Shown here piece after piece: positions 5,639-60,525 of a stretch of 64,000 bases of DNA. Below the pieces are notes generated by a model. That model was not told the DNA's origin, made no database searches, and worked only from the letters and a program-made list of their open reading frames with translations. Both the position numbers and the translations under genes were made by a program. Source of the DNA: Gemmatimonadota bacterium (GTDB lineage Bacteria > 4572-55 > J002); contig RFFQ01000095.1 in assembly GCA_003697105.1 (NCBI GenBank), positions 1 through 64,000 on the forward strand, written 5' to 3'. Position 1 is the first letter of the stretch; each line of letters starts with the position of its first letter.

Positions 5639-5992
5639 TTAATGATCTTGCGGGTTCACTAACTGAAACCAATTCCCATCTATATCTTGAAAGGTCAGGC
5701 ACTTATCGGTACCATCCGTGCCCTGAAACGTCAGCCCACGTGCGCGTAGGGTGGCGGCGGTGGTGTCAAGGTCATCGGTATAGAGCACGATGGCGGCGTT
5801 TGCCTCTTGATACGTTTTCCCAACGGGATGGGGGTTGCCGGGGCGTAGCATGATTTCGGTGTCACCGATTTTCAGCCACACAAATTGACCCTCCTGCACA
5901 AAAATCACTTCCACGCCGAGGATTTCTTCATAAAATTCTTTGGCTTTTAATGGATCGCGGACAAATAGTTCGATGTGACCAAATCGCATCAT
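5639..5992 (-). CDS. Glyoxalase/bleomycin-resistance (VOC) family protein
   Basis: A small VOC-fold protein of about 117 residues. The paired beta-alpha-beta modules are visible: the first begins MRFGHIELFV, contributing a likely metal His, and the second ends in LTFQDIDGNWFQL with a Glu- or Gln-type ligand region. VOC proteins include glyoxalase I, dioxygenases and resistance proteins, so the reaction cannot be named. I place the start at the ATG at 5992, whose ATGA overlaps the stop of the TPR gene; the longer ORF to 6025 would run inside that gene. Last gene of the operon before the terminator at 5567-5598. Confidence 0.75.
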   Translation of the reverse strand: MMRFGHIELFVRDPLKAKEFYEEILGVEVIFVQEGQFVWLKIGDTEIMLRPGNPHPVGKTYQEANAAIVLYTDDLDTTAATLRARGLTFQGTDGTDKCLTFQDIDGNWFQLVNPQDH

Positions 5993-7734
5993 GTATAGCC
6001 ATCCTTTTCTAGTTTTGCTACCCATTTCCGCGCGACCGGATGATCCGGATGAATTGTCAAGGTTTGACGAAAAACGGCGAGGGCATTACTCATTTGACCC
6101 AGTTGGTAGTATAATTCACCAAGAGCGGCATATGCCATAGCGAATTTCGGCGCAATGCGGATCGTATTCATGTATTCCTCAATGGCGCGTTCGGTGTTGT
6201 TCATTTCCCGGTAGAGATTCCCGAGTTCAAAATGGGCTAAAAAGAACGTTTCATCGACCCGGATGGCATTTTTTAATGCGACAATTTTATGAGCTCCTGC
6301 CAGTTTTTTGGCGTCTTCATAGTAATCTTTAGCGGTTTTTGCGGTGGAGTTTGCTTCGGGGGATTTGCCGGTGGGGGCAGAAGCCGCTGTTTCGCGGTTG
6401 TCTAACGCACCGCTTGCTAAATAGCGCTCTACGGTCGCAACACGATCAGGGTAATCCGCCTTTCCGAATTCAATAAATGTCTGGTAGGCTTTTTTGGCTT
6501 GATCCCGTTTGCCCATCTTTTCAAACATAACGCCCAAATTGTAGTACGTAAACGGGTATTGGGGGTTAAGGTCTATTGCCTTTTGGAACGATTGAAATGC
6601 CGCATCAAAATGATCTTTTCCCGCCAAAACGGCACCCAAATTGACATGCGCCAGAACATGGTCTGGATTTAACGTGATGGCTTTTTTATAAGCTACCAAG
6701 GCGCCATCGGGCATCTTTTTCAGGTCAAACATCAGACCTAAATGATAAAATGCTTCAGGATTTTGGGGGTCAACCTCTGTGACGACTTTGAAAATTTGGA
6801 AGGCTTCTTCAGTATTGCCGAGTCGGTATTCACATTGTCCCAGCGCAAAAAGGGCTAATTTATGACGGGAATTATGTTTCAGCACCATCTGGAAACAATA
6901 TTTAGCTTGATCCACCATGTTCATCGTCTGGTAGAGGTGACCTAATTCATAATAGGCCGCGTCATTTTCGGCATCACACCGGACGACTTCACTATATTCA
7001 CGGGTAGCTTTTTCCAGTTGATTGCTCTCAACGTATGCTCGGGCGAGGTCGAGCCGGGCAGGAAGGTGCGTCGGGTCGAGCTCCAACACCCGTTCCAAAA
7101 AGCCAATTTTCTGGGACCCCTCCAAAGTTTGAGCAATCTCATACGCCTCATCTGCGCTCTGGTTGATCTCTTCGGCAGTGAGTTCTGGAGCACTTTCGAC
7201 TTCTACATCCAAGTCCACATCCACATCATCTTGACTGATTTCGTATGTTGTCGGCGCAGAACCGAGTGCATTGCCGGCACGCTTGAGTTGTTCTTCAATA
7301 TAGGTTTTTTGGCGTTCTGTGGGACCCAGTAGAAGCGCCCGTTTGTATGCAGGAATCGCGGTAGGGGCATTGTCCAATTTTTTGAGGTAAATATCGGCAA
7401 TGCGAATTTGGAGTTGGATGTTGTTGGGGTCCTCGAGGAGTTTCTGCTCCAGTTGCTCTACTTCAGCTTGGGCGTCCTGTTGCCGTTGGGCGACGGCGGC
7501 GCGAGCCGTGGAGGTGGTTGTTGCCGGCGAAACACTGGCAGTCGTGGATTCCGATATTAGCAAGTAACCAATATAAGCACCGGCTAATATCAGAACCCCA
7601 GAAATAAGATAAGCCGGCATCATAAATGACCGGCTTGTGAGATTGCTCAGAAATGAGAATAGAAAAAACACAACAATAATAGCGATGGTAATACCAATTA
7701 ATGCGGCAATTTTAGCGCCCTTGCTTTCCAGCAT
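5989..7734 (-). CDS. Membrane-anchored TPR repeat protein
   Basis: A 581-residue protein with two N-terminal hydrophobic segments (about residues 10-28 and 38-60). A short coiled coil with a TPR pair follows (~75-150), then an acidic linker rich in Asp/Val, and a long TPR array (~180-440) with signature spacing such as AYYELGHLYQTMN and AHVNLGAVLAGKDHFDAA. A second TPR block lies at ~470-575. Such proteins usually scaffold complexes at the inner membrane; no catalytic motif is visible. The start is 12 bases after the PdxJ-like stop, so it is cotranscribed with that gene. The stop overlaps the VOC start. Confidence 0.8.
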   Translation of the reverse strand: MLESKGAKIAALIGITIAIIVVFFLFSFLSNLTSRSFMMPAYLISGVLILAGAYIGYLLISESTTASVSPATTTSTARAAVAQRQQDAQAEVEQLEQKLLEDPNNIQLQIRIADIYLKKLDNAPTAIPAYKRALLLGPTERQKTYIEEQLKRAGNALGSAPTTYEISQDDVDVDLDVEVESAPELTAEEINQSADEAYEIAQTLEGSQKIGFLERVLELDPTHLPARLDLARAYVESNQLEKATREYSEVVRCDAENDAAYYELGHLYQTMNMVDQAKYCFQMVLKHNSRHKLALFALGQCEYRLGNTEEAFQIFKVVTEVDPQNPEAFYHLGLMFDLKKMPDGALVAYKKAITLNPDHVLAHVNLGAVLAGKDHFDAAFQSFQKAIDLNPQYPFTYYNLGVMFEKMGKRDQAKKAYQTFIEFGKADYPDRVATVERYLASGALDNRETAASAPTGKSPEANSTAKTAKDYYEDAKKLAGAHKIVALKNAIRVDETFFLAHFELGNLYREMNNTERAIEEYMNTIRIAPKFAMAYAALGELYYQLGQMSNALAVFRQTLTIHPDHPVARKWVAKLEKDGYT

Positions 7735-7746
7735 TGGGAATCCCCC

Positions 7747-8463
7747 TTAAGGACGTTTAACCCATTGGGCTAGTTCTTGTACCGCACGCTCCATACCAAC
7801 CAGCATCGCACGCGCGATGACAGCATGCCCGGCAATAACCCCGTGAACACCTTCTAATCCTAACAAATTATGGATATTTTGATAATCCACCCCATTTTCA
7901 AGGGTGACCATCAGCCCTAAGCGGGATGCCATTGCTGCTGCCGTGGCTAACCGCTCGATTTCCGTTGCGTATTCGTCCAACGTAAATGAGCCGGCGTAAT
8001 CGCTCACGTTCAGTGCTACACCATCAACCCCTAATTTATGGGCGGTTTTTATCTGATCCAGTTCCGGATCGATAAAAAGGCAAATTGTCCGGTTGCCGCG
8101 TAAGGTTTTCAACCGGTCGGCGATCAGTTCACTGTGCTGAATAACATCCAGCCCGCTATGAAGTGTTAATTCCGGCTCTTTTTCGGGAACCAGCGTGACG
8201 ATATCCGGATTAAGTGCTAACACCGCCGCAACCATTGCCTCCGAAAGACTCACATGCAAATTCAAGCGGGTGCGAATCACACTTTTGAGCAGATTAGCAT
8301 CCCGGTCCTGAATGTGTGCCCGATCTTGCCGTAAGTGAATGCTAATTTGATCGGCGCCACCCATTTCTGCTAAAATGGCAACCGCTACGGGGTCTGGCTC
8401 CGTTGCCTGCCCAGATTCCCGCAAAACTGCCACGCCATCTAAGTGTATTCCTAGCCGGGGCAT
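7747..8463 (-). CDS. PdxJ-like TIM-barrel protein with altered active site
   Basis: A 238-residue protein alignable from end to end with pyridoxine 5'-phosphate synthase (PdxJ), which condenses deoxyxylulose 5-phosphate with aminoacetone phosphate. Family blocks are kept: the N-terminal G-x-x-L-D strand, ADQISIHLRQDRAHI, LVPEKEPELT, SGLDV and AGHAVI. Against E. coli PdxJ from memory, the catalytic His45 is kept as His43, but catalytic Glu72 is His70 and catalytic His193 is Asn190. The substrate-binding Asn-Ile-Asp-His is His-Leu-Asp-Gly, and the His-Thr-Gly loop is Asn-Val-Ser. It may be a paralogue with another substrate. No pdxA is nearby. Homology is very likely; PdxJ activity is doubtful. 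Confidence 0.8.
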   Translation of the reverse strand: MPRLGIHLDGVAVLRESGQATEPDPVAVAILAEMGGADQISIHLRQDRAHIQDRDANLLKSVIRTRLNLHVSLSEAMVAAVLALNPDIVTLVPEKEPELTLHSGLDVIQHSELIADRLKTLRGNRTICLFIDPELDQIKTAHKLGVDGVALNVSDYAGSFTLDEYATEIERLATAAAMASRLGLMVTLENGVDYQNIHNLLGLEGVHGVIAGHAVIARAMLVGMERAVQELAQWVKRP

Positions 8464-8479: not shown

Positions 8480-8695
8480 TTATAAGGTGAAATACTCTTC
8501 ATCACCGGCAGGTACCAGATGAATCAAGGCTTCCTGACCCGAAAACCGCTTGGTGAAGGCGTCAATGGCTTCATTCATATTTTTGGAGTGTGAAACCACT
8601 TCATCCAAATCCAATTTGATTGTGACCCACTCCCCCGGATATTTTGCCAGTTCTGCTTCATGATTTTTAATCCATTGATCTAGATTGGCATCCAT
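8480..8695 (-). CDS. Small DUF5678-like protein
   Basis: A 71-residue acidic protein. A Trp-Val-x-Ile strand (EWVTIKLDLDEVVSHSKNM) followed by a helix resembles the DUF5678 pattern, in which a short beta-hairpin precedes a helix; the role of that family is unknown. The start is well supported by GAGGTGA a few bases before the ATG. It is the first gene after the promoter at 8761-8789 and lies 16 bases before the PdxJ-like gene, so they are probably one transcript. Confidence 0.55.
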   Translation of the reverse strand: MDANLDQWIKNHEAELAKYPGEWVTIKLDLDEVVSHSKNMNEAIDAFTKRFSGQEALIHLVPAGDEEYFTL

Positions 8696-8760: not shown

Positions 8761-8789
8761 AGTTTATTAGGTTTTAGGCAAAATGTCAA
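8761..8789 (-). promoter_or_regulatory. Sigma-70-type promoter for the DUF5678-pdxJ-TPR-VOC operon
   Basis: Minus-strand TTGACA (8789-8784) and TAAACT (8766-8761) with a 17-base spacer, about 65 bases before the ATG at 8695. It begins right at the stop of the upstream methyltransferase. Confidence 0.7.
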
Positions 8790-20040: not shown

Positions 20041-23000
20041 TTAATCTCCTGACCCAAATAGAATCAGGTTTGCCCAATAACTGGGATGCGGAAATCGTTC
20101 CCGAATCATGGATTGGGCGGCGTTTAGGGCGTCTTCCGTCGTGTTACCGGGTAATGCCCGTAAGTATCGTTTGATGGCAATCGCTGTCGATAAATTATCG
20201 GACCGCCAAAGCGCGCCGACAACCGTTGGTGCCCCGCTCAAAAGAAATGCGGTGGGGATGCCCAGTGGAACGATGGCGGAAACGGTATCGGGTAAATCCA
20301 ACAAACCCCCACTAATAGTAATGTGTTTTAGTCGATGTTCCAAGTCTAAAATGGAATAAACCGCCAATTGATGGTCTCCCCATGTGATATGATGGTACAA
20401 TGGATTTGCGGGTGTGGTTTCCAGTGGGCATGAAAATAAGGCTTGGTTTGCTGTCACCAACATCGAATCCACCCGCCCGCGTTGGATGTTCATTTCGGTT
20501 TGCAATATTACCCCCGGTACTAGCCGCTTTGCGCTGATCGCTTCTTTTGCCATCAAGGGTTCGGTAATAGAACTCAGGACGACCATTCGATTTGCAACGG
20601 ATGCAGACGCCGGTGGTAACGGTATGGCAAACATGGCGGAAGGGGCATACCGGAGCCGGTGGGTATCCATTAGATACGAGTCTGGAGCCGGTTTTAAAGC
20701 CCCAAATGATAGTGACGCCAGTACCCGATCCGGTACGATACACCAGCGGGCATATTGTTGCACGTGATCTTCTACCGGTGCAATTAGGGCGGTGTATAAG
20801 GCAAGTGCCGTTTGAGCGGTATCCATTACGTAATAAAGTTGCCGCTGATATTCTGCCACCTGACCGGCTAACTGTTCGGGATGGATGTGTAGCGGAACGG
20901 CACGAACCGCCTGAGCCGAAATCACCCAAACCCAAACCTCGGATGCCATCCAGAAATAGTCCAGCACAACTGTGTCTTTCGGGAGATGGGCTTGGACCCG
21001 CTGAAGGTCAATTGCCGCCGTGGAAACCATCAAGGATGCGCGGGGCTGATCCGTGACAAGATGCTGGATTTCACGGGCGATCTTCCGGGACTGCTCCCCA
21101 AGCTGGTGTTGCAACTGCTCCGGCAAGGCAATCCCTTGTTTTTGGTAAAGCCGCGCCTGCTGAATATGGCTTTGATATGCCGATTTCAAAGATCGATACG
21201 CTTTCAGCTCCGAGCGTTGCCCCGGAAATGGGCTGATCCATTTCAGATAATCCCACCATTTTGCCCGGGCAGCAACTTCCCATGCCGCTTCAGGTTTATT
21301 CTGTGCCAATAGCAACCGCACCAATGATTCATATATCTCCCGCTCTGGAATGAAAAAACCATACTCCAAAGCAAACGCGCGTGAATCTGACCGCTCTATA
21401 TAGTCCAGGGCGCGACGATAGTACACCACGGCAGAATCTACGTGCCCTGTATGCGCCATGTTGGCGGCAATCACCGCTAGAATTCGTCCTTCCAATTCCG
21501 GTAGAATTGCTTGGTGGGCATGTTGCCAAGCGTTTTGGAGAAGGGAATCTGCTTGTTCTATTTGCTGTTCTTGGTAAGCGATCTCCCCCAGTCGCAATTC
21601 CACGGCACTTTGCAAGACCGGATCGGGTGTACCGGCAAGCCACGCCAACGCGGTATCTAAATGCGTTTTTGCACGAGCAACCTGAGCCGCCTGTAAACAG
21701 GCAACCGCCAAATTATAATGACATTTTGCCCCATCAGGCAATGATTTAAATCCGTCGTTCGTTGCCAAAACCTCGGAAAAATAGAACTGGGCACGGGTGG
21801 GATGGTGTTCTTGGAGGTACATCAACCCGAGTTGGGATTTTAACATGATTATACCGTGCCCTTGAACCGGGTTCAGTTGGGCATGTTGCAGTGCTGTTTG
21901 CAACACCCTAAAACTTTGTTTTGATTTGCCCTGAAGCCACAAAATATGGCTTTTTAGCCGGGTGATCTCCCATGGGGTGGAGGGTGGCGCCGGATTCCCA
22001 GCACGGAGTTCGGCGCGTTCTACCCACTTCAGGGCTAAGGTGTAGTCACCGTATTCCAACGCGGCAGTGGCAATTTCTTGTGCGAGGGTCATTTGGAGGG
22101 GGGCGGTTCCCAATACACGTAAGTATTGATCTGCCTGCTGGAATGCCTCCAATGCGGAATCTGGGCGGGCAAGAGTGAGGTACAGCCTGCCGATCTGCCA
22201 GAACACGTGGGCAATTTCTACCGTATCTGCCAGTTGCTGGTAAATGGGTAACGCTTGCCGGTAGCTTGCCAGTGCCGCCGCCACGTTGATTTGCCGGAAT
22301 GCAAGATCACCCCGAAGCCGGAGCACTTTTGCCAACACATCCGGACGGTTGTGTTGTTGGCTGTACTGCTGGGCGTCATCCAGATGTTGCTTTGCTGGAT
22401 CATATGCTTCCAGTTCTATTTCCAACTCGGCAAGGGTCGTGTATGCTAGTGGGAAGTGGTCGCTGAGTTGTTTCTCGTGTAAAAATGCCACGTAACGTTC
22501 CTGATAGCGTAATGCCAATTTGGGTTGTTGGGCGGCGCGTAAACAGCGGACTAACATCCGGTGTGCCTGTGTGATGTTCTCTATGGGAGTTGTCCGGTCT
22601 TTCTGGAGACGGGTTAATTGTTTTTGCTGGGTGGTTGCCGCCTGCCGGTAGTCACCATTCTCATATAATGCCTGGACCAACTCGTTGTAAATGGGCGAGA
22701 TGCGCTGTGGCGCCGCATATTCTGCGAGGCGTAAAGCGGTTTCTAGGGCATGGATGGCACGTTCCCACTGGCCAGCGTTCCGGTAATGCAATGCTTGTTG
22801 GTAGGACTGTTCCAATTGCTGGCGGGCAACTTTTTGTAACGATTGTGCCGGGAGACCCGGAAATCCCCATAGCCGAAACCCAGCCCACTCCCGGACGGTT
22901 TGCTGGCGTTGAATTGCTTCGATCTGGGTTTGTTGTAACGCACCGGCAATGGTGTTTTGTGCCTGCTGGTACTCATATAGATGTCCAAGTAGAGCGATTC

Positions 23001-26000
23001 GTGCCGCCGGTTCGATCTCCCATTGGGAAACCAGCACCGACGATACTCCCGCAAAGAGTAGCGCACGTTCCAATGCGACCATCACGGGTTCTTCGGCGTC
23101 CGGATCCGCATCCGGCATGTTCCAACCACTGATTGTTACCAAATTTGCCTGAAGCGGTATCTCAAACCATTCAAAGAGCGACATCGTTTGATTGTATGCT
23201 AAATAGAGGGGTGTGCGCAGTGGCAGTTGCGGTCGCGGCGAGGCTCTCAATGCCAAATGCACCAGCCCGTAATCCGGTAGCATCCGTCGGAGCGTTGCTG
23301 GCGAGAGCGAATCTCCCTCCAATAGATACGGTTGCGGTAACGAGAAGACCAATTCACCCACTTCAGTCAGAGACCCTGCTAGGGTAAATGCCGTCCGGCG
23401 TTCTTCTGTTGCGACTAAAAGGGTATTCATGGCGGGGAGATACTGCTGTTGCTGTGCCACCAGCACACTGCTCAAGCTGGAGGCGTACGTCACACGGTGA
23501 TCTTCAATCACATAACGCCCATTGTGCCGCAATGCCGCAAACGGGATGGCGTACAGCATTTTATCCGGCAAGATGGTCCACTCCGAATAGGTCGCTAATT
23601 CTGATGTAACAGGTTGTAATATCGCATCATACACCCATTCTAAAAAGATGTTCAGCGAATCCAGATTGTGGGATAGCTGGTCGTGTAAGGTGTGGGTCAA
23701 GGATGCCAACTGGGTGGTGGAGAGCGGCAGGCGAGCGGATACAATTCGATTTTTGGAAATAACCCAGACCACCGATTGGTTGTATCCCACATGATAAGCA
23801 ATCAGGGCTTGGGTGGCGGTTAGCTGTTGTTGGATATTATCAATTGCCGGCGGGTTGACTCGAAATAGATCATACACCGCGGTGTCCGCTAAGGTGAGTG
23901 CGCTGAGTTCCGCTTCTGCCCGCTCCCGTTGGAGATGGTACTGTTGGCGTTCCTGTTTCTGTTCCGGAAGCAATGTTTGCATGTGATAACGTATATTGAC
24001 GATCTGCCGTCCCAATTGAAGTGCTCTATTTTCCGTGCTATCTGGCAGATTGAGGCGCTGGTTGCCGCTTATGTCGATCAGTTGGTGTGCCCGTTGGCGT
24101 TCCTTTACGATGAGTGCGGCTCGTACTCGATTCTGTGCCATCAAGGTGGCAATGGTTTCGGCATACACGCCCTCCTGATCCGCGGGGTTGGTCGGGATGG
24201 TTGGGGGCAGTGCTTCCACTATATCCAATGCCTGATAGAGCAATTTGAGCCGTTCATCCGCCGCTTGCGTGACCTGAGCTTGAATGTACAGCACTTGCCA
24301 TAGCAGTTCCGGTAAACCGTGCGTTGCGGCTAATGACCGGGCGGAATTGGGACCAACACTCAGGTACGATAGCGCTGTTGCCGTATCTCCCTGAGCCAAA
24401 TAGACCAGTGCCACATTTTTGCGGATCAGGGCACGCTCCCGGGGATGATCATACCGGAATGAGAGCCGATCTGCCTGAAGATAATAGGCTAGGGCTTGTT
24501 GGTAAAAGGTGTCAAAAATGGTGGAGGTGGCTTGTTGGTTAAGATACGTTGTCAGGTCGGAGTCTAACCCCAAATCATAGCCGGTCTGTTGTTTCAGGTC
24601 GGTTAGATAGCGGCGAATCACCTCTTGACTGGATTTTATCTGATTTTGGCGCTCGATGTCATCCGTGGCTTTCTCGCCCGGCAACCGTGGGTCCAATTGA
24701 TTGCGGTAGAGGGCGAAATAAATACTGGCGAGTTGGTGATAAATCGCCAACTCCATCCGTTGGTCTTCAACAGTGAATACCGGACGCTCTGCTTTTCGCC
24801 GTTGGATTAATTCCAATGCCTGTGTTTGGTAATGTAATGCTTTGCGCCCGCGCCACACCGGTACCGGTTTCCGGTTCGGGGAGGTACTGGCAGACCGGTC
24901 TAGCATTGCGAGATACACTTGCCCTAAATTTTGATAATTGATTAATGCGCCTACCTGAAAATCATGTTTTGGGTCGCGGCATATTTGAAGGGAATTCTCA
25001 AAATGAAACAGAGCTTCGTCTTCATTTTTAAGCTGTAAGTAGATGTTTCCCAGATTATTATAACAGATTGCGCGCTCTTGCGCATTTCCGCTCATCTCCA
25101 AAATCTCTAATCTTTTCTGTGTGAAGTCACGTGCGCGTTCATAATCTTGTAGTTGATAGTAGCTTTCCGCTAGGATGCTGTAGACCAATGTGATTTCGTC
25201 ACTGGGTGAGAACGGTTTTTGTCCGCGAGATTCGCCAATGGTGGTGGGGATTCGCACAAATGGCATGGCAAAAGTGAGCAACCGGAGATTATAGGGGACG
25301 ATTTGAAGGGGAGCAAGTTGGGTGCGCTCCCGGCGGAAGTCCTGATGTTGCCACTCGTGTTCGGCTCGTTTTGCCCAGTAGATGGCGGAGTCATAGTTGC
25401 CCATGTGGAGGGCATTCGTGGCAATTTGCCGGAAACATAATCGTTGGAGGTGCTGTCGTTCTTCTGCCGGAAGTTCAACGTCATCCAGTTGGTGTAATGC
25501 CCGTTGGATATAACGGGAAGATGCCGGATAATCTTTGGCGACATAGTACAGTGCCCCCAGTTGTTGGTAAGCCTCATATACCAACGCCGAATCCCGTTGG
25601 AGACGAGCGAGTTCAATCAGGCGGTGAAATGCCCGGTTGCCCGCCGAAACGTCTTCCAAAAAGAAGGCACACCGCCCCATTCGCCGCTGGATTTCGATCT
25701 CCTGTGATACGGATTGGAACGTCGAATCCATTTCTATTTTTTGTTGGTAGTAGTAATATGCTTTTTGGAAGCTGGTTTCATCTCCGTTATCGGCGAGATG
25801 GTAGAAGGTATTTGCCAAGTTGAGGAGCAACGCGGCTTCCCATTGTGGAAACTGCTGTTCATCGTTGAGTGTGAGCGCAATTTGATATTTCTCGATAGCC
25901 AGTTCATAGAGGAATTCCCGTTCATCCGGTTCAATGCGGTTTTCGCGGCGTTGCTGTTCGTAATCTTTTCGCAAACCTTCGTACACGTATCCCAATGCCA

Positions 26001-28353
26001 GATAGGTATCAATTTGGCGAAAATCCAGATCGAGTGCTGTTTCCAATGCCGGTCGTGCCGCGGCAAGTTGCTGCATATTTGAGGTCTGATGGAATTGTTC
26101 GATTCGGGCGAATCCGGCGGCGTAATGGTAGGTGGCTTCATGTGAAAATTCGGTGCGGAGCGAGTCATAATGGGCAATAATGGCGGGTAGTTGGTGGTGT
26201 TGGCTGCGAATCCAACCGCGATGTGCCGCCCAATGGAGTGAATCTTGTTGGAGTGCTTGTTGAAAAAAGGCGGCTGCGGCTGCCGGTTGGTGTTGGTCCA
26301 AAGCATTTTGTCCCTGATTGAGGTAGGTTTGTACCAAATGTTCGCGGGCACGTTGACCCACGGTGCCGTTTTCATACCGTCCGTACTCCTGAATGATGAG
26401 TTTATAGAGGGCTTCGGTGCGATCATCGCCGGTGTGACTATAGATACGACCCATCGCGAACAGCGCCTGAATCTGCCAGTCATGTTCGTTGGGGTATTGC
26501 TGGATGAGTTGCTCGTATGCGGAAAGCGCCGCATCGTACTGCTGTTGTTGCTCATAAATTGTGCCGATCTGGAATTGTGCGCGGGCACACAAGGAGGTAT
26601 AAAAGGGATAGGATTGGATGATTTGATAAAATCCGGTCAGTTGGTCCATTGGATTGTCATATGCGGTATAAAAGGCGATAATGCGCTTTTCAGCCACTGC
26701 CGTCCATTTTTCTGAGGTGAAATAGGTCTCCAGTATGTGCAAGTAGCGTTCGATTCCACTGCCACGGTCTCCCAATTGGGTATAAATATCGGCAATTTTA
26801 AGGTTCGCTTCCGCGGCACTATCGTATTGGCGTGGGAACTGATCCACCACATGCTGGTATTGCTCCAGCGCCCGGGAATTTTCACCTACTACGTGATGTA
26901 AATCCCCCATTGCCAGATAGATACGAGCTAATGCCCATTCATTTTGCTGGTGTTCTTCTAGTAATCTTTGGTATGCCTTCTGAGCAGCAACAGCGTTATG
27001 TTGATGCTTCCATTGTGCTTGGATGTAGGCAATTTGAATCAACGGTTTAAGAGGTGTTTCCGGGTAGTTTTGCAATGCCGTTTGATATGTGTCGAGTGCT
27101 AGGCGTTGTTGGTCGGTTTTTTCGTACAATTGCCCTAACTGGTAGAAGGCTTCGGCGGCGTATGGACTTGCCGGAAAATTATCAATGACGCGATGATACG
27201 CCAACATAGCGGTAGTGGCAGACCGGTTATTTCTGATCCAGTGGGCATATCGTAATTGGAACTCCGCGGAAGGGGCGATGGGAACTTCCCCGAAGGCAGG
27301 CATTTGCCAAATATCCATATTTCCACTGCGGTTGGTGGCGAAGTAGATTGAGCGACCATCCGGGCTCCACACGGGTTGGTAATTGATGTACTCATGCGTG
27401 GTCAGAGGTATGACCCGGCGGGTTGAAAGATCGATCCGGTATAGCCCGGGGTTATCAGCGAGTGTGACATGCCCATCACCATTTGTATCTTGATGGTAAC
27501 GGGCAAAGACGATCTGTTGCCCATCGGGACTCCAAGCGGGCGTGAGGTCATAATCCGAACCGCTGGTTAATTGTACCAGTGAATCCCCATTGGCGGAAAT
27601 TAACCACAAGTCGCCGTTATTATCCGGTTTACCCCGAAAAGAGACATGAGCAATCCACTTTCCATCCGGGCTCCAGCGGGGGGCAAAACCGCCATCTTGG
27701 GTGAGCGGCCGGGCATTTTCCCCTTTGGCAGTGCATAACCAGAGATTTCGTTGAGGTGGGGAGGTACTGGTTATGTGTCGTCGGGAAGTAAATACAATCT
27801 GATCTCCGCTGGGATGCCAATCTGGATCGGTATCCTCGCCATTAAAATGGGTCAGTTGGGTCGCGTGTTCATCTGTTTGGTCGAGATCATGGATGGGGAT
27901 AGTCCACAGATCACCACCGGCATCCTTCCGCCGGGAGACATACACCAATTGTTCCTTTTTTGGATGCCATGCCGGTTCGACATCGGCACTGGTATGGCGG
28001 GTCAATTGGCTGGGGCGGCTGCCGTTTACGGCCCGTTTCCACAAATTCCAGTTGGCATTTTGATCGGCATCGGTTCGCCCGGAAACAAAGACCAACGTTT
28101 GCCCATCCGGGGAAATTGCCGGAAAGAGGTCTATATCGGTATTGGTGGTAATTTGCTGGGGCACTTGATTGCGGATGGACTCGAACCATTCTTCGTAACG
28201 GATTGATGCTTCCGATGCCGGGGCTATTGGCGGGGTCGATATGGGAAGCGGAAGGTGAGGGGTTACGCGGGAGCTTGTACACCCCCCACTAAATATGATG
28301 AGTAGAATCAGAGTAATATAACCGCCGGAAGGGCACCGTTGGGGGTATTGCAT
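20041..28353 (-). CDS. Giant lipoprotein: TolB-like propeller, TPR arrays, two degenerate CHAT modules
   Basis: A 2770-residue protein with a lipoprotein signal (hydrophobic segment, then FSGGC near residue 25). Residues ~70-360 hold PD40/TolB-like propeller blades, with repeated WSPDG motifs. A long TPR region follows (~370-1450), then CHAT-like module 1 (~1490-1830), a second TPR region (~1840-2400) and CHAT-like module 2 (~2445-2770). CHAT domains are caspase-like proteases with a His/Cys dyad. In module 1 the His position reads VHLALRAS and the Cys position ISGWN; in module 2 the corresponding segments are ALFSCPLE and ISGGLLD. Neither keeps the dyad, so both look like pseudoproteases. 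It follows an Ig-like lipoprotein by 9 bases. Confidence 0.85.
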   Translation of the reverse strand: MQYPQRCPSGGYITLILLIIFSGGCTSSRVTPHLPLPISTPPIAPASEASIRYEEWFESIRNQVPQQITTNTDIDLFPAISPDGQTLVFVSGRTDADQNANWNLWKRAVNGSRPSQLTRHTSADVEPAWHPKKEQLVYVSRRKDAGGDLWTIPIHDLDQTDEHATQLTHFNGEDTDPDWHPSGDQIVFTSRRHITSTSPPQRNLWLCTAKGENARPLTQDGGFAPRWSPDGKWIAHVSFRGKPDNNGDLWLISANGDSLVQLTSGSDYDLTPAWSPDGQQIVFARYHQDTNGDGHVTLADNPGLYRIDLSTRRVIPLTTHEYINYQPVWSPDGRSIYFATNRSGNMDIWQMPAFGEVPIAPSAEFQLRYAHWIRNNRSATTAMLAYHRVIDNFPASPYAAEAFYQLGQLYEKTDQQRLALDTYQTALQNYPETPLKPLIQIAYIQAQWKHQHNAVAAQKAYQRLLEEHQQNEWALARIYLAMGDLHHVVGENSRALEQYQHVVDQFPRQYDSAAEANLKIADIYTQLGDRGSGIERYLHILETYFTSEKWTAVAEKRIIAFYTAYDNPMDQLTGFYQIIQSYPFYTSLCARAQFQIGTIYEQQQQYDAALSAYEQLIQQYPNEHDWQIQALFAMGRIYSHTGDDRTEALYKLIIQEYGRYENGTVGQRAREHLVQTYLNQGQNALDQHQPAAAAAFFQQALQQDSLHWAAHRGWIRSQHHQLPAIIAHYDSLRTEFSHEATYHYAAGFARIEQFHQTSNMQQLAAARPALETALDLDFRQIDTYLALGYVYEGLRKDYEQQRRENRIEPDEREFLYELAIEKYQIALTLNDEQQFPQWEAALLLNLANTFYHLADNGDETSFQKAYYYYQQKIEMDSTFQSVSQEIEIQRRMGRCAFFLEDVSAGNRAFHRLIELARLQRDSALVYEAYQQLGALYYVAKDYPASSRYIQRALHQLDDVELPAEERQHLQRLCFRQIATNALHMGNYDSAIYWAKRAEHEWQHQDFRRERTQLAPLQIVPYNLRLLTFAMPFVRIPTTIGESRGQKPFSPSDEITLVYSILAESYYQLQDYERARDFTQKRLEILEMSGNAQERAICYNNLGNIYLQLKNEDEALFHFENSLQICRDPKHDFQVGALINYQNLGQVYLAMLDRSASTSPNRKPVPVWRGRKALHYQTQALELIQRRKAERPVFTVEDQRMELAIYHQLASIYFALYRNQLDPRLPGEKATDDIERQNQIKSSQEVIRRYLTDLKQQTGYDLGLDSDLTTYLNQQATSTIFDTFYQQALAYYLQADRLSFRYDHPRERALIRKNVALVYLAQGDTATALSYLSVGPNSARSLAATHGLPELLWQVLYIQAQVTQAADERLKLLYQALDIVEALPPTIPTNPADQEGVYAETIATLMAQNRVRAALIVKERQRAHQLIDISGNQRLNLPDSTENRALQLGRQIVNIRYHMQTLLPEQKQERQQYHLQRERAEAELSALTLADTAVYDLFRVNPPAIDNIQQQLTATQALIAYHVGYNQSVVWVISKNRIVSARLPLSTTQLASLTHTLHDQLSHNLDSLNIFLEWVYDAILQPVTSELATYSEWTILPDKMLYAIPFAALRHNGRYVIEDHRVTYASSLSSVLVAQQQQYLPAMNTLLVATEERRTAFTLAGSLTEVGELVFSLPQPYLLEGDSLSPATLRRMLPDYGLVHLALRASPRPQLPLRTPLYLAYNQTMSLFEWFEIPLQANLVTISGWNMPDADPDAEEPVMVALERALLFAGVSSVLVSQWEIEPAARIALLGHLYEYQQAQNTIAGALQQTQIEAIQRQQTVREWAGFRLWGFPGLPAQSLQKVARQQLEQSYQQALHYRNAGQWERAIHALETALRLAEYAAPQRISPIYNELVQALYENGDYRQAATTQQKQLTRLQKDRTTPIENITQAHRMLVRCLRAAQQPKLALRYQERYVAFLHEKQLSDHFPLAYTTLAELEIELEAYDPAKQHLDDAQQYSQQHNRPDVLAKVLRLRGDLAFRQINVAAALASYRQALPIYQQLADTVEIAHVFWQIGRLYLTLARPDSALEAFQQADQYLRVLGTAPLQMTLAQEIATAALEYGDYTLALKWVERAELRAGNPAPPSTPWEITRLKSHILWLQGKSKQSFRVLQTALQHAQLNPVQGHGIIMLKSQLGLMYLQEHHPTRAQFYFSEVLATNDGFKSLPDGAKCHYNLAVACLQAAQVARAKTHLDTALAWLAGTPDPVLQSAVELRLGEIAYQEQQIEQADSLLQNAWQHAHQAILPELEGRILAVIAANMAHTGHVDSAVVYYRRALDYIERSDSRAFALEYGFFIPEREIYESLVRLLLAQNKPEAAWEVAARAKWWDYLKWISPFPGQRSELKAYRSLKSAYQSHIQQARLYQKQGIALPEQLQHQLGEQSRKIAREIQHLVTDQPRASLMVSTAAIDLQRVQAHLPKDTVVLDYFWMASEVWVWVISAQAVRAVPLHIHPEQLAGQVAEYQRQLYYVMDTAQTALALYTALIAPVEDHVQQYARWCIVPDRVLASLSFGALKPAPDSYLMDTHRLRYAPSAMFAIPLPPASASVANRMVVLSSITEPLMAKEAISAKRLVPGVILQTEMNIQRGRVDSMLVTANQALFSCPLETTPANPLYHHITWGDHQLAVYSILDLEHRLKHITISGGLLDLPDTVSAIVPLGIPTAFLLSGAPTVVGALWRSDNLSTAIAIKRYLRALPGNTTEDALNAAQSMIRERFPHPSYWANLILFGSGD

Positions 28354-42377: not shown

Positions 42378-45356
42378 TTACATCTCCACATTAGGCAACT
42401 GGGTCTGACTCAACTTATTACGAGCTTCTTCCGCTGCTTCCTGAACAAACCGGTCCTCTGTAGTTTGGGCGTTTTGTATCCAAGGGAAGAACACCTCGGC
42501 TTTAAGCTCACCGACGGCATAAATTGCACAAGCCTGAATCCAAGTATCTGAGCTTTCAAGACATTCTCGAATCACATCTTCATATGAAGATGGAAACGAA
42601 ATTCCCCACTGATGTACCGCTATTTCCCGGCAATCTTGAATGCGGGTGCCATCTAGCAGGGGCACAAATAACCGCTTGATTATTTTTGGCTCCACAGAGT
42701 CCAGTGCTTCTACGGCGGTTGCCCGGATACGCTCGTTCGTACTTTTGAGTTTCTGATCAATTATGTCAAGTTGATGCTTCTTGTTATCTAAAACTCCCAA
42801 GGAAAGCAACATCAGGGTTTGAAATTCGTTACAGCGTTCTAACAAGACTTTTCGCAACAACGTTGTGGCGTGGTTGACTGCTGGTGTAGCTGTGAGAATA
42901 TCAATTGCTGAGCGGTATTGATAACATTGCTTCAGGGTTTGTTCGATAAATTCCAAAACCCGTACTTTGCGACTTGACGATTTCACATCACGTAGCGCCC
43001 GTAACGCATTTTCTCGCATACGAAACGTTGCGTGCGGATTAAATGCCACCTCAAGTAACGCATTTGTGGCGGGTTTCCCGATTTGATGTAACGCAATAAT
43101 CGCTGCTTTTCGAACCCGATGGTAAGGGTCATCTAATCGGGCAATTAATGGTTTGATGGCTTCCGGACGGTTTGTTCTGCCGAGTGTTCGAGCAGCGCAC
43201 TGCCGGATCCGGTCATCTTTAGCCTCAAGTGCTTTGAGCATTGACTGGGTAGCAACCACGCTGTGTACGGCGGCTAAATTTTCGACCGCTAATGCGGCTT
43301 GATAGCGTACTTCTTTATCGTCATCCTCCAGCATCAATTTGGAGAGCAAAATAATATAACGGGGATCGTTCAAGTTGCGATACGCTACCACGGCAACAAG
43401 CCGTTCTTTTGCTAGCGGGGAAAAGAACAACTCTGTTAAAATGTCAAAACCCGCTTCTGCATATTTAGGAACATGGGTGCGAACCAGAGCTGTTGCCGCA
43501 ATTGACCGAACTTGAGCGTCGTCATCTGTAATGAGGGGCTGAAGAGCGGCGGCAATTTCATCTACGGAAGCTATCCATGGTCGAGTTAATGTTTCTGCCG
43601 CAGCGCGTTGAATTTGCGGTGCCCGGTGTCCTAGGTTCTCTAATACAATCGGTTTTGCCCGTTTATCTTCTAAATCCCCCATTGCTTCCAAAATTCCAGC
43701 TTGTACGGGAACGGATACGTTGGGGAAGACTTCCACAAAGGTGTCAAAAACTTCTGGATGCCCTTTACCAACGCGCCCCAAAATCCGAGCGGCATGGACG
43801 GCAATTTCGTCATCTGTGTTTCTCAATTGCTGGAACATCGGGCGTAAGGTTTCGGCATCAATTCGCCCAAAATCTTTCGCGGCAAGGGCGGTTAAATCCA
43901 CATCTTTTTCACGGAGTAATTTGATAACCGATTGCACATAGGCATCTTTTTGCTTGTAACTTAAATAAATGTAAATGAGACCTAACAGAGTGCTTATTAC
44001 TCCCAGCAATTTTAACACACCAGAAATCCCGAAAAACTCCCGGTTGTAGTCAAAGAACATAATCAAAAAACCGGCAAGGATCGTGCCCACCGGTGAGATG
44101 AAACCGACAGCAAACGCACGGGCTCGCCCCCGTATCCGGCGAGGAACGCAGTTGTAAAGCAACTCCGTTGTGGGCTTTTTAAGTGACTTTTTGAGGGACT
44201 CCCGGACAAAACGAGCAACGATTGCACTTCCATAGCTCATATTGGTGAACACCAAACTTGCCGCCGCCACTGTGGTGACGATGGGATAAGCTAAGTTGGC
44301 CAGCCCGACACCCAGCCGGTCGATCAACTGGCGACCGATAACCAAGGGGATGAAAAGGGAAATCAAACCCGCTACTAATTTAAACCCTCCAAAGAACGCA
44401 ATCAAATTGGCGGTATCCACTTTTTCTGCCTGAAAAACTCCGCTATATTCATAGCGCAAGAGTTGCAACAGAATCACCATCACCAACGTTGTGCCCAACG
44501 TGTATTGCATGAATGTTGAACTTTTGGTAAAAACAACAATTTGGCGGATGTTTTCAAGAGTGGGGGCTTTTTGCTTTTGAACCTGATGGCGGCGGGTAAT
44601 GTCGGACTCATGATCCGCTAAAGCATGGGGATATAAATGCTGGATCCAATAGACCACAACAATCCCGATTCCACACAATCCGATGCTTAAAAACATCAAT
44701 TCTTTCGCATCCAGAATGTTCTGCCATAATAAAAACGCCGCTAGGATTGAACCGGTAATCTCAATGGAGGCAATCAGGGACACCAGTCGTTTGTACTCCA
44801 AGATATTATACAAACCCGTTAGATATACCGGTAAGTGGGTGTTAATAATCATTAACGTGACATAGCTGAGCGCATTTAAAAAGAGAAAATAAGCAATCGG
44901 GATAACAGACTGCCAACTGGTTCCGAATTTCAGATAATCCTGATTTTCAAAGAGCTGACCCGCGGTCTCTCGCGGAGATACCTGTTCCGTAAGGGGGATG
45001 ACCCGGGAGATTTCGGGAATAAAAATCGTTAAGATCAGAAATGTAGCGCTTATTGCCACTAGAAAATGGATGAGCAATTTATCGGCAGGAATTCGGTCGG
45101 CGAAGGTTGCATAAAGCAACGAAACCAAAATTCGCAACCCCCCGCTGATCAGAAACATCAGGGATAGATTGCTGAGATCGAGGTGTCCCAAAAATAAGGC
45201 TTCCGTTGTTGGATCCAAAATTGCCATTGACATGCCTAACACAAATTGGAGAAGCAATACCAATGACAACTTGCCCCATTCCCCGGGGCGTACACTCAGA
45301 AAGTGCCCAACAACGGAGGCGAAACGACGTAATCGTTCACGGATTCCTGCGCTCAT
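42378..45356 (-). CDS. Membrane transporter-like domain fused to HEAT repeats
   Basis: A ~992-residue protein. Residues ~20-480 hold about twelve hydrophobic helices resembling the MFS and ATP:ADP-antiporter (NTT-like) fold, with a large loop near 120-150. Residues ~500-990 are HEAT-type repeats (DNAs encoding RSIAATALVRTHVPKYAE, DDRIRQCAARTLGRTNRP, and similar) that would lie in the cytosol. Start at the ATG at 45356: the TTG at 45380 lies inside the -10 box of the promoter. The neighbouring cNMP-binding gene suggests ligand control. Substrate unknown. Confidence 0.75.
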   Translation of the reverse strand: MSAGIRERLRRFASVVGHFLSVRPGEWGKLSLVLLLQFVLGMSMAILDPTTEALFLGHLDLSNLSLMFLISGGLRILVSLLYATFADRIPADKLLIHFLVAISATFLILTIFIPEISRVIPLTEQVSPRETAGQLFENQDYLKFGTSWQSVIPIAYFLFLNALSYVTLMIINTHLPVYLTGLYNILEYKRLVSLIASIEITGSILAAFLLWQNILDAKELMFLSIGLCGIGIVVVYWIQHLYPHALADHESDITRRHQVQKQKAPTLENIRQIVVFTKSSTFMQYTLGTTLVMVILLQLLRYEYSGVFQAEKVDTANLIAFFGGFKLVAGLISLFIPLVIGRQLIDRLGVGLANLAYPIVTTVAAASLVFTNMSYGSAIVARFVRESLKKSLKKPTTELLYNCVPRRIRGRARAFAVGFISPVGTILAGFLIMFFDYNREFFGISGVLKLLGVISTLLGLIYIYLSYKQKDAYVQSVIKLLREKDVDLTALAAKDFGRIDAETLRPMFQQLRNTDDEIAVHAARILGRVGKGHPEVFDTFVEVFPNVSVPVQAGILEAMGDLEDKRAKPIVLENLGHRAPQIQRAAAETLTRPWIASVDEIAAALQPLITDDDAQVRSIAATALVRTHVPKYAEAGFDILTELFFSPLAKERLVAVVAYRNLNDPRYIILLSKLMLEDDDKEVRYQAALAVENLAAVHSVVATQSMLKALEAKDDRIRQCAARTLGRTNRPEAIKPLIARLDDPYHRVRKAAIIALHQIGKPATNALLEVAFNPHATFRMRENALRALRDVKSSSRKVRVLEFIEQTLKQCYQYRSAIDILTATPAVNHATTLLRKVLLERCNEFQTLMLLSLGVLDNKKHQLDIIDQKLKSTNERIRATAVEALDSVEPKIIKRLFVPLLDGTRIQDCREIAVHQWGISFPSSYEDVIRECLESSDTWIQACAIYAVGELKAEVFFPWIQNAQTTEDRFVQEAAEEARNKLSQTQLPNVEM

Positions 45357-45379
45357 AAAGGTAGGTCTAGTGCGGGACA

Positions 45380-45408
45380 ATCATACTATACATCGGAAAT
45401 GTTGTCAA
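45380..45408 (-). promoter_or_regulatory. Near-consensus promoter of the transporter-HEAT operon
   Basis: Minus-strand TTGACA (45408-45403), 17 bases, TATGAT (45385-45380). It begins within 10 bases of the radA stop and gives a ~17-base leader before the ATG at 45356. Confidence 0.88.
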
Positions 45409-58523: not shown

Positions 58524-58552
58524 ATTATAGCGGATCAATGCCGAACAGACAA
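58524..58552 (-). promoter_or_regulatory. Promoter of the acyl-CoA carboxylase operon
   Basis: Minus-strand TTGTCT (58552-58547), 17 bases, TATAAT (58529-58524), about 52 bases before the ATG at 58472. The divergent TDO-like gene starts at 58637; a weak plus-strand TTGCCA/TACCAT pair lies at 58564-58592. Confidence 0.75.
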
Positions 58553-58636
58553 GGATTTATTCATTGCCAACCCAAACAGAATCCCTTACCATTTATTACC
58601 TTTAATAATTTTATCACTTCACATCAGAAAGGAGAT

Positions 58637-59380
58637 ATGATGGATCGAGAATATTTTTACCAACTCATTGGGGGTGAGGGGAAGTTTGATTACGAAATCT
58701 ATCTGAATACCCAACAACTGCTATCCTGCCAAAAAGATTATGACGAGTTGTGTAATGCTGATGAACTTCAATTTCAGATTGTACACCAGTCTGAAGAGTT
58801 ATGGATGAAATTGATCGCCTACACCCTGTTGGATATTGATGATTATTTGCAAGCCGGTAATACCATGCGGGTGTTGACCCTTTTTCGCCGGGTTTATCTG
58901 ATTCAAAAATTGATGATCCAACACCTCGAGATTTTAGAGACCATGTCGCCCAAAGAGTACCAAGAAATCCGGTTGCATCTCGGGAATGGGAGTGGTCAGG
59001 AATCGCCCGGTTTCCGCACGTTGCTACGGATGTTTAAACCGTTGTGGCAATCATTCAAAACCACTTATTTGGATGCCAAAGGGCTTACGGTTGAAAAAAT
59101 CTATGATTCCGAATACGATCGCGGGGAAGCCTACATGGTGGCGGAAGCTTTATTTGAGTTTGATTTGCTCTTTCAAAATTTCCGCTATCACCATATCAAG
59201 TTGATCCACCGAACGATTGGTTTACACGCTAAGTCTCTGAAAGGCAAAGCGGTGGATATTCTAAATGATGGCTTAAAGATGCAATTTTTCCCGGAACTGT
59301 GGGCAATTCGCGGTGAAATGACCGATCGGTGGGGGGGTCAATATGGGGTGGTACGTGACTCCTTGAGTACCGGCCATTAA
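58637..59380 (+). CDS. Tryptophan 2,3-dioxygenase-like haem protein with altered substrate loop
   Basis: A 248-residue protein alignable with TDO, which opens the indole ring of tryptophan. Kept relative to Xanthomonas TDO (from memory): FQIVHQSEELW with Phe46 and distal His50, Arg127 matching the carboxylate-binding Arg117, and haem-ligand His186 in HHIKLIHRTIG. Changed: SGFQSxQ-type motif to SGQESPG, and the GTGGSSG loop that holds the substrate ammonium to SLKGKAV. It is also shorter than the ~290 usual. The substrate may not be tryptophan. AAAGGAG precedes the ATG, and a kynureninase-like gene follows by 32 bases. Confidence 0.75.
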   Translation: MMDREYFYQLIGGEGKFDYEIYLNTQQLLSCQKDYDELCNADELQFQIVHQSEELWMKLIAYTLLDIDDYLQAGNTMRVLTLFRRVYLIQKLMIQHLEILETMSPKEYQEIRLHLGNGSGQESPGFRTLLRMFKPLWQSFKTTYLDAKGLTVEKIYDSEYDRGEAYMVAEALFEFDLLFQNFRYHHIKLIHRTIGLHAKSLKGKAVDILNDGLKMQFFPELWAIRGEMTDRWGGQYGVVRDSLSTGH

Positions 59381-59412
59381 TTCCATGAACCTCAGGGAAA
59401 GAGAGTTTAAAC

Positions 59413-60525
59413 ATGAATTATCGGGACCACTTTGATGTTCCCGCGGGCACGTATCTCTTGAGCCATTCGGTGGGATGCTTGCCACAGCCAACACGTGCGG
59501 CGGTACAGCATTATTTGGATCAATGGGCGACACAGGGAGGCCATGCGTGGGGTGATTGGTTGGATTGTATCAATCACTTTACCTCAGCTTTGGCAAATAT
59601 TTTGGGTGGGAATGCTTCTGATTATTGCCCGCAAGTCAATCTTTCTGCCGGTTTGACGAAATGGTTGGGCGCATTGCCGCGTCGTGCAGGGCGCACTAAA
59701 ATTCTGCTAACGGAACTGGATTTTCCCTCGATGGGTTTTGTGTTGGCGCAGTTACGCCGGGAGGGGTATGAACTGGTCTATTTACCGGCGGAGCAGGGGG
59801 TGATTTCACTGGACGTGTGGCTGGAGCATCTCCAACCGGATGTCCATCTGGCATTTATCACCCATTCCCTCTCCGAAAACAGCTACCAACAACCGGTGGC
59901 AGAGATTGTAGCTCGTGCCCGTGAAGAGGAGATTTATAGTGTGGTCGATGTGGCACAATCTGCCGGAATTCTCCCGATTGATGTGGTGCAATGGCAGGCA
60001 GACGCGGTGATCGGCTCTTGCGTCAAATGGCTTTGCGGAGGTCCGGGTGCCGGCTTTTTGTGGGTCAACCCGGCATTAATTGAGCATCTGACGCCACGCG
60101 ATGTGGGGTGGTTTTCGCATTCAAACCCGTTTGAGTTTGATATTCATCACTTTGAATGGGCACATGATGCGCGGCGGTTTTGGGGTGGGACACCTTCGGT
60201 TTTGCCCTTTGTGGCGGCAACGGAAGGACTCCGCCTGTTACACTCGATTGGCGTTGAGACGCTCTACCGGCACAACCGGCAGTTGACTACCCAGTTGCGC
60301 CAGATCGCCCATGAACAGGGCGTAACGGTCAATACTCCGATGTTTCCACAGTGTGGTGGTACGGTTGTGTTGGATTTTCCGGATCGGGTTCGGGCGGCCC
60401 AAGTGTTTGACCAACATCAAATTCATGTTGACCTGCGTCCCACATTTGGCTTCCGATTTTCGCCCCATATCTATACGGATGTCGCCGACATTCAATGTTT
60501 GGCCGATATTTTCCGGCAGGTGTGA
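59413..60525 (+). CDS. Kynureninase-like PLP enzyme (aminotransferase class V fold)
   Basis: A 370-residue fold-type I PLP enzyme. Pyridine-N Asp is in YSVVDVAQSAG (Asp179), and the Schiff-base Lys in GSCVKWLCGGPGAG (Lys205), a motif close to kynureninase (a K-x2-x-GGPGA stretch). The late segments FWGGTPSVLPFVAATEGL and DLRPTFGFRFSPHIYTDVAD also match kynureninase, which cleaves kynurenine to anthranilate and alanine. Other class V enzymes such as isopenicillin N epimerase or cysteine desulfurase are alternatives. Its place right after a TDO-like gene supports the kynureninase reading; AAAGAGAG precedes the ATG. Confidence 0.7.
   Translation: MNYRDHFDVPAGTYLLSHSVGCLPQPTRAAVQHYLDQWATQGGHAWGDWLDCINHFTSALANILGGNASDYCPQVNLSAGLTKWLGALPRRAGRTKILLTELDFPSMGFVLAQLRREGYELVYLPAEQGVISLDVWLEHLQPDVHLAFITHSLSENSYQQPVAEIVARAREEEIYSVVDVAQSAGILPIDVVQWQADAVIGSCVKWLCGGPGAGFLWVNPALIEHLTPRDVGWFSHSNPFEFDIHHFEWAHDARRFWGGTPSVLPFVAATEGLRLLHSIGVETLYRHNRQLTTQLRQIAHEQGVTVNTPMFPQCGGTVVLDFPDRVRAAQVFDQHQIHVDLRPTFGFRFSPHIYTDVADIQCLADIFRQV

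Follow-up and report, generated by a model that had tools for sequence, protein, structure and literature searches.

The window, by which we mean the whole 64,000-nucleotide stretch analysed here, carries an intact gene for a PdxJ homologue whose presumed catalytic residues have been extensively replaced, in an organism whose vitamin B6 is almost certainly made by PdxS-PdxT, judging from gene content and known pathway biochemistry. The protein is very probably not a working PNP synthase. The best explanation of the evidence as a whole, to which we give about an even chance, is that the gene is a retained, remodelled pdxJ with a new phosphorylated ligand.

The gene and its surroundings

The features of the region that bear on this finding are as follows:

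7747..8463 (-): gene for a PdxJ-like protein of 238 aa, a TIM barrel with substituted active-site residues (ORF, profile and structure comparison)
8254..8256 (-): codon of His70, equivalent to Glu72 of E. coli PdxJ (sequence read directly, and alignment)
7894..7899 (-): codons of Glu189-Asn190, equivalent to Gly192-His193 of E. coli PdxJ (alignment)
8480..8695 (-): gene for a DUF5678 protein of 71 aa, with which the presumed operon starts (PF18929, E = 7.7e-8)
5989..7734 (-): gene for a TPR protein of 581 aa with hydrophobic segments at its N-terminus, presumed to belong to the same operon (Pfam/ORF)
5639..6025 (-): gene for a glyoxalase/VOC-fold protein, whose reading frame overlaps that of the TPR gene at its end and which is presumed to belong to the same operon (PF00903, E = 5e-14)
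8761..8789 (-): match to the sigma-70 pattern, TTGACA-17-TAAACT, lying upstream of the DUF5678 gene (weak; no better than chance in this region)

The original prediction had called the gene intact, and this is borne out by an open reading frame with an ATG start and no internal stops, and by a codon usage that equals that of the neighbouring genes and exceeds that of all its other reading frames. The neighbours had also been correctly named as a DUF5678-like and a TPR protein. The DUF5678 gene is separated from the pdxJ-like gene by 16 bp, and the TPR gene begins 12 bp downstream of the latter; these three genes and the glyoxalase-fold gene presumably form one operon. As for the good promoter attributed to it, the motif is present, but such matches are no commoner in the region than expected by chance (14 found versus 10 +/- 3). 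The operon partners provided no functional clue, and no B6 genes were seen near the pdxJ-like gene.

Elsewhere in the window, positions 20041-28353 (-) encode one predicted protein of 2770 aa, in which a CHAT (caspase-like) peptidase domain is combined with TPR repeats and with propeller repeats of the PD40/TolB type; the next gene encodes a small protein resembling lipoproteins, which matches a bacterial Ig domain weakly. At 58538-60525 (+), a gene resembling that of tryptophan 2,3-dioxygenase precedes one for a class V aminotransferase similar to kynureninase, and the two may form a short tryptophan-degradation operon. A 1000-aa protein (42378-45380, -) has HEAT repeats, its sole Pfam match, after a long N-terminal part that is transporter-like by eye.

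A PdxJ barrel with replaced active-site residues

The window protein matches PF03740 over profile positions 1-232 of 234 (E = 3e-64; 216.7 bits versus a cut-off of 24.5). A phmmer search against the PdxJ entries of the PDB (1m5w, 1ho1 and 6rg0) aligned residues 4-233 with E = 2e-47 and a single one-residue gap, so that the register is secure, and the same register was obtained from a 27-row alignment and from larger alignments of PdxJ homologues. Structure prediction agrees: the AlphaFold2 model computed from the 27-row alignment is a confident PdxJ barrel (pLDDT 92, pTM 0.90) that superimposes on 1ho1 with a Z score of 35.8 and an rmsd of 1.3 A over 231 residues, and its closest solved structures are all PdxJ (Z about 36).

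In this alignment, Glu72 of E. coli PdxJ is His70 and His193 is Asn190, while the NIDH and EIHTG motifs read HLDG and ALNVS, respectively, as had been proposed for the two residues, for NIDH and for the HTG part (NVS) of the second motif; comparison with many PdxJ sequences revealed no shift that would restore Glu72 or His193. The loss is larger than was first stated, as it also includes Asn9 (His7), His12 (Gly10), Arg20 (Gly18), Glu153 (Ala150), Thr156 (Val153) and Gly192 (Glu189), in addition to His155 (Asn152) within the altered motif. The catalytic roles assigned to these positions are those known from the E. coli enzyme structures. Conserved in the window protein are, in E. coli numbering, Asp11, Arg17, His45, Arg47, Arg50, His52, Gly194, Gly215 and His216; in its own numbering the kept residues are D9, R15, H43, R45, R48, H50, G191, G212, H213 and G223. 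In 81 canonical PdxJ sequences, 45 alignment columns reach an invariance of at least 95%; the window protein departs from the consensus at 16 of them, versus 0.4 on average and 3 at most in the canonical rows. The changed columns are not significantly enriched on the active face of the model (p = 0.75); almost every invariant column of the PdxJ family lies close to the active site in any case.

Vitamin B6 genes of the genome

A canonical pdxJ or pdxA was sought elsewhere in the genome, and neither was found: the window protein is the only PdxJ homologue detected genome-wide, and a PF04166 profile search of the 97% complete genome gave no match to PdxA. In contrast, PdxS and PdxT are adjacent and intact, pdxS being located on a contig other than that of the pdxJ-like gene. 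PdxA is the supplier of the amino-ketone substrate of PdxJ, which, with no PdxA detected, has no evident source in this genome. The combination of a single PdxJ homologue, no PdxA and an intact PdxS-PdxT pair thus makes it very unlikely that the window protein is a PNP synthase. The same-class genome, the sole other member of the phylum compared, has canonical PdxJ and PdxA and is devoid of PdxS. Overall, the window protein resembles the PNP synthase PdxJ (PF03740; TIGR00559; 1ho1, 1m5w, 6rg0) in fold, length, sequence (36-45% identity), the His/Arg cluster of strand 2 and the glycine/GH phosphate rim, and departs from it in lacking E72, H193, N9, H12, R20, E153, T156 and G192 and in belonging to a genome with PdxST and no detectable PdxA.

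Altered PdxJ in other PdxS-positive bacteria

The window protein had first been viewed as a single case; the case is real, yet far from unique, as the alteration is met again in many families of bacteria and goes along with the change to PdxST. When 93 genomes with a PdxJ homologue, each from a different family, were scored for the presence of PdxA and PdxS, the H45/E72/H193 triad was found to be altered in 7 of 7 PdxS-positive genomes versus 1 of 86 PdxS-negative ones (Fisher p = 8e-10, uncorrected for phylogeny), and the sole exception, G092, is also devoid of PdxA. In an extended sample, in which PdxS was searched in 386 genomes and PdxJ in 80 selected ones, most PdxS-positive genomes had no PdxJ homologue at all, while in the 15 that had one (the window genome and 14 others) it was altered without exception. 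PdxA was absent from 12 of these 15, present in G046 and G345, and represented in G321 by a weak partial match only.

The 15 proteins differ in the extent of the change, as (i) 12 are changed at many sites, while (ii) three from one family (possibly Fibrobacterota), which are likewise PdxS-positive and PdxA-negative, are changed at one or a few sites, with one catalytic residue replaced in each, and are otherwise close to canonical PdxJ (E72Q in G090 and G230; in G358, H193R and a shortened lid). The strongly altered proteins of other lineages (G054, G055, G056, G075/G216, G179, G295, G321, G329, G345 and G046) are similar to the window protein in that they come from PdxS-positive, mostly PdxA-negative genomes, have H45/E72/H193 replaced and keep the rim glycines. 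They have lost His45, His52 and His193 in every case, mostly with Gly at 193 and often with Arg at 72, and Glu153 is often kept. The window protein displays the complementary pattern: H45, R47 and H52 of the strand-2 cluster are kept, E72 has become His and H193 Asn, and it is the residues of strands 1, 3, 6 and 7 that are replaced. This differing pattern indicates that it probably represents a separate conversion.

Several further PdxJ variants were encountered. Genome G112 encodes a second, strongly altered PdxJ paralogue (L150:9244-10002), preceded by a degenerate, divergent gene for a polysaccharide deacetylase and followed by a SecD-like one, in addition to PdxA and a PdxJ with Lys in place of His12. 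The latter type forms a well supported subclade (L079, L081-L083, L085, L155, L156 and L158) in which Asp11 is replaced by Asn and the lid is changed as well; Glu72 and His193 are kept and PdxA is mostly present, making it a natural active-site variant. In Holophagaceae bacterium UBA1801 (DCFP01000120.1; L017:6001-6690), PdxJ carries Ala for Glu72 and Arg for His193. Small lipoproteins starting with Cys-x-Asn-Pro-Phe, without Pfam match, recur near altered pdxJ genes of several lineages (L148, L174, L175, L177, L179 and L180).

Descent and selection

The gene order around the altered pdxJ of G179 is glmM-pdxJ-acpS, a classic pdxJ context, and in G055, G056, G295, G321 and G329 it is located behind a divergent Polysacc_deac_2 (PF04748) gene. 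This deacetylase and the altered pdxJ, also paired in G112 and others, were considered as a new functional module, a proposal that was rejected as the same gene equally precedes canonical pdxJ (G002, G007, G052, G059, G067 and G137); the linkage is thus ancestral and uninformative on any new role. In the window genome, Polysacc_deac_2 is on a contig other than that of the pdxJ-like gene. The presence of altered copies at ancestral pdxJ loci indicates descent from pdxJ in place.

Altered PdxJ in the lineages measured is maintained by strong purifying selection. Between the congeneric G075 and G216, dN is 0.11, dS is saturated and dN/dS is about 0.04, as low as that of the adjoining ligase-like gene; for G090/G230 the ratio is 0.06. 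It is likely that selection also preserves the window gene, at least for a protein that folds.

In a careful tree, the window protein stands apart from the other altered PdxJ, among canonical rows, on a branch of 1.7 changes per site. By the AU test, one clade holding all altered PdxJ (p = 0.41) is not rejected, and neither is a grouping of the window protein with its class-mate's canonical PdxJ (p = 0.36). A conversion independent of the others is favoured, though unproven. Searches of the sampled genomes, plasmids and viral contigs turned up nothing close to the window variant.

What the protein may do now

We propose that PdxST took over B6 synthesis and that the residues for substrate condensation and ring closure then disappeared from the old PdxJ barrel. 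Alignment and model show that its fold has been kept, as have the glycine/GH phosphate rim on strands 7 and 8 and, on strand 2, the His/Arg cluster. The remodelled barrel would bind, and may convert, a phosphorylated small molecule different from the two substrates of PdxJ. The new His7, His70, Glu189 and Asn190, together with the old Asp9 and His43, may form a new centre for acid-base chemistry, or conceivably for a metal as in ribulose-phosphate 3-epimerase, where the barrel opens at its C-terminal side, the pocket geometry being deduced from the alignment and strand ends. That the protein still binds a phosphorylated ligand appears moderately probable, and that it catalyses a new reaction, as opposed to binding alone, falls slightly short of an even chance. 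The fullest form of the proposal, in which PdxJ was repeatedly kept and converted after the PdxST takeover and the window protein is an independent new enzyme acting on a phosphorylated metabolite, perhaps metal-dependently through His7/His43/His70/Glu189, is tentative. The original prediction of a distinct enzyme built on the PdxJ barrel, and not a pseudogene, therefore holds in part: given the undetected pdxA, the complete PdxST, the confident fold, the normal codon usage and the purifying selection seen elsewhere, the gene appears to be neither a pseudogene nor a PNP synthase gene and possibly encodes a distinct protein, with catalysis as a candidate role. The general fold is shared with ribulose-phosphate 3-epimerase and further TIM barrels that bind phosphate (Z 19-20). 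By strand order only, His43, His70 (near the end of strand 3) and Glu189 (an acid at the end of strand 7) occupy positions like those of the epimerase's His/Asp metal ligands on strands 2, 3 and 7, whereas its strand-2 Asp metal ligand is Arg45 in the window protein, and a profile comparison of PdxJ with the epimerase gave no useful alignment and detected no sequence relation.

Instead of a new enzyme, the barrel could be a non-catalytic carrier or sensor that binds a B6 vitamer or sugar phosphate and tunes PdxST or B6 homeostasis. Retention of the phosphate-rim glycines and GH alongside loss of the acid-base residues is in line with such a role, as are the recurrence of altered PdxJ in PdxST organisms and its strong purifying selection in other lineages. 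Nevertheless, the new charged residues H7, H70 and E189 at catalytic positions suggest replaced chemistry over plain loss, and pdxS is on a different contig, with no B6 gene seen close by; we regard this role as possible but rather unlikely.

It is less probable still that the window copy is a relic drifting since PdxJ became dispensable with the acquisition of PdxST. The long window branch would fit decay, as would the catalytic changes that differ among the related G090, G230 and G358 (E72Q versus H193R with a lid deletion). A relic is hard to reconcile, though, with an intact reading frame, tight spacing to its neighbours, normal codon usage and a confident fold; altered copies elsewhere evolve at dN/dS 0.04-0.06 and persist over many families, and the many PdxS-positive genomes without PdxJ show that the gene can be lost.

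Continued PNP synthesis by means of His70, Glu189 and Asn190 as substitute residues is very improbable, because PdxA is undetectable and PdxST complete, and because the triad broken here is intact in 85 of 86 PdxS-negative genomes; the whole fold, the kept strand-2 cluster and a score above the NF003625 equivalog cut-off are what can be said for it. Although pdxS and the pdxJ-like gene are on separate contigs, a binning or assembly artefact joining two organisms is scarcely credible in view of a contamination of 0.66% at 96.85% completeness, the IF-3, apparent L20 and PheS-PheT genes and uniform codon usage of the window contig, and the pairing of PdxS with altered PdxJ in 14 other genomes.

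Implications for annotation and for the family

The favoured reading of the window gene as a remodelled pdxJ bears on how PdxJ homologues are named. NCBIfam NF003625 scores the window protein at 224.5, above its equivalog cut-off of 190, and so would name it PNP synthase, as it does several of the other altered homologues, while the TIGR00559 score of 190.3 is just below the cut-off of 192.75; current family models thus over-call PNP synthase. The gene pdxJ has been used as a signature of the DXP-dependent B6 pathway, and ten genomes, including those of Caldithrix abyssi and Fibrobacter succinogenes, have been described as having both B6 pathways, the DXP branch being perhaps incomplete there (PMC9997740). 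The available passages of that paper make no mention of altered catalytic residues. Their occurrence in the PdxJ of every PdxS-positive genome sampled here offers a direct candidate explanation for the "both-pathway" genomes, and the rule that the presence of pdxJ means B6 synthesis by the DXP route fails for PdxS-positive bacteria with altered PdxJ. For the family, these proteins amount to a repeated natural experiment: in several lineages an enzyme barrel no longer tied to its reaction has been preserved by strong selection.
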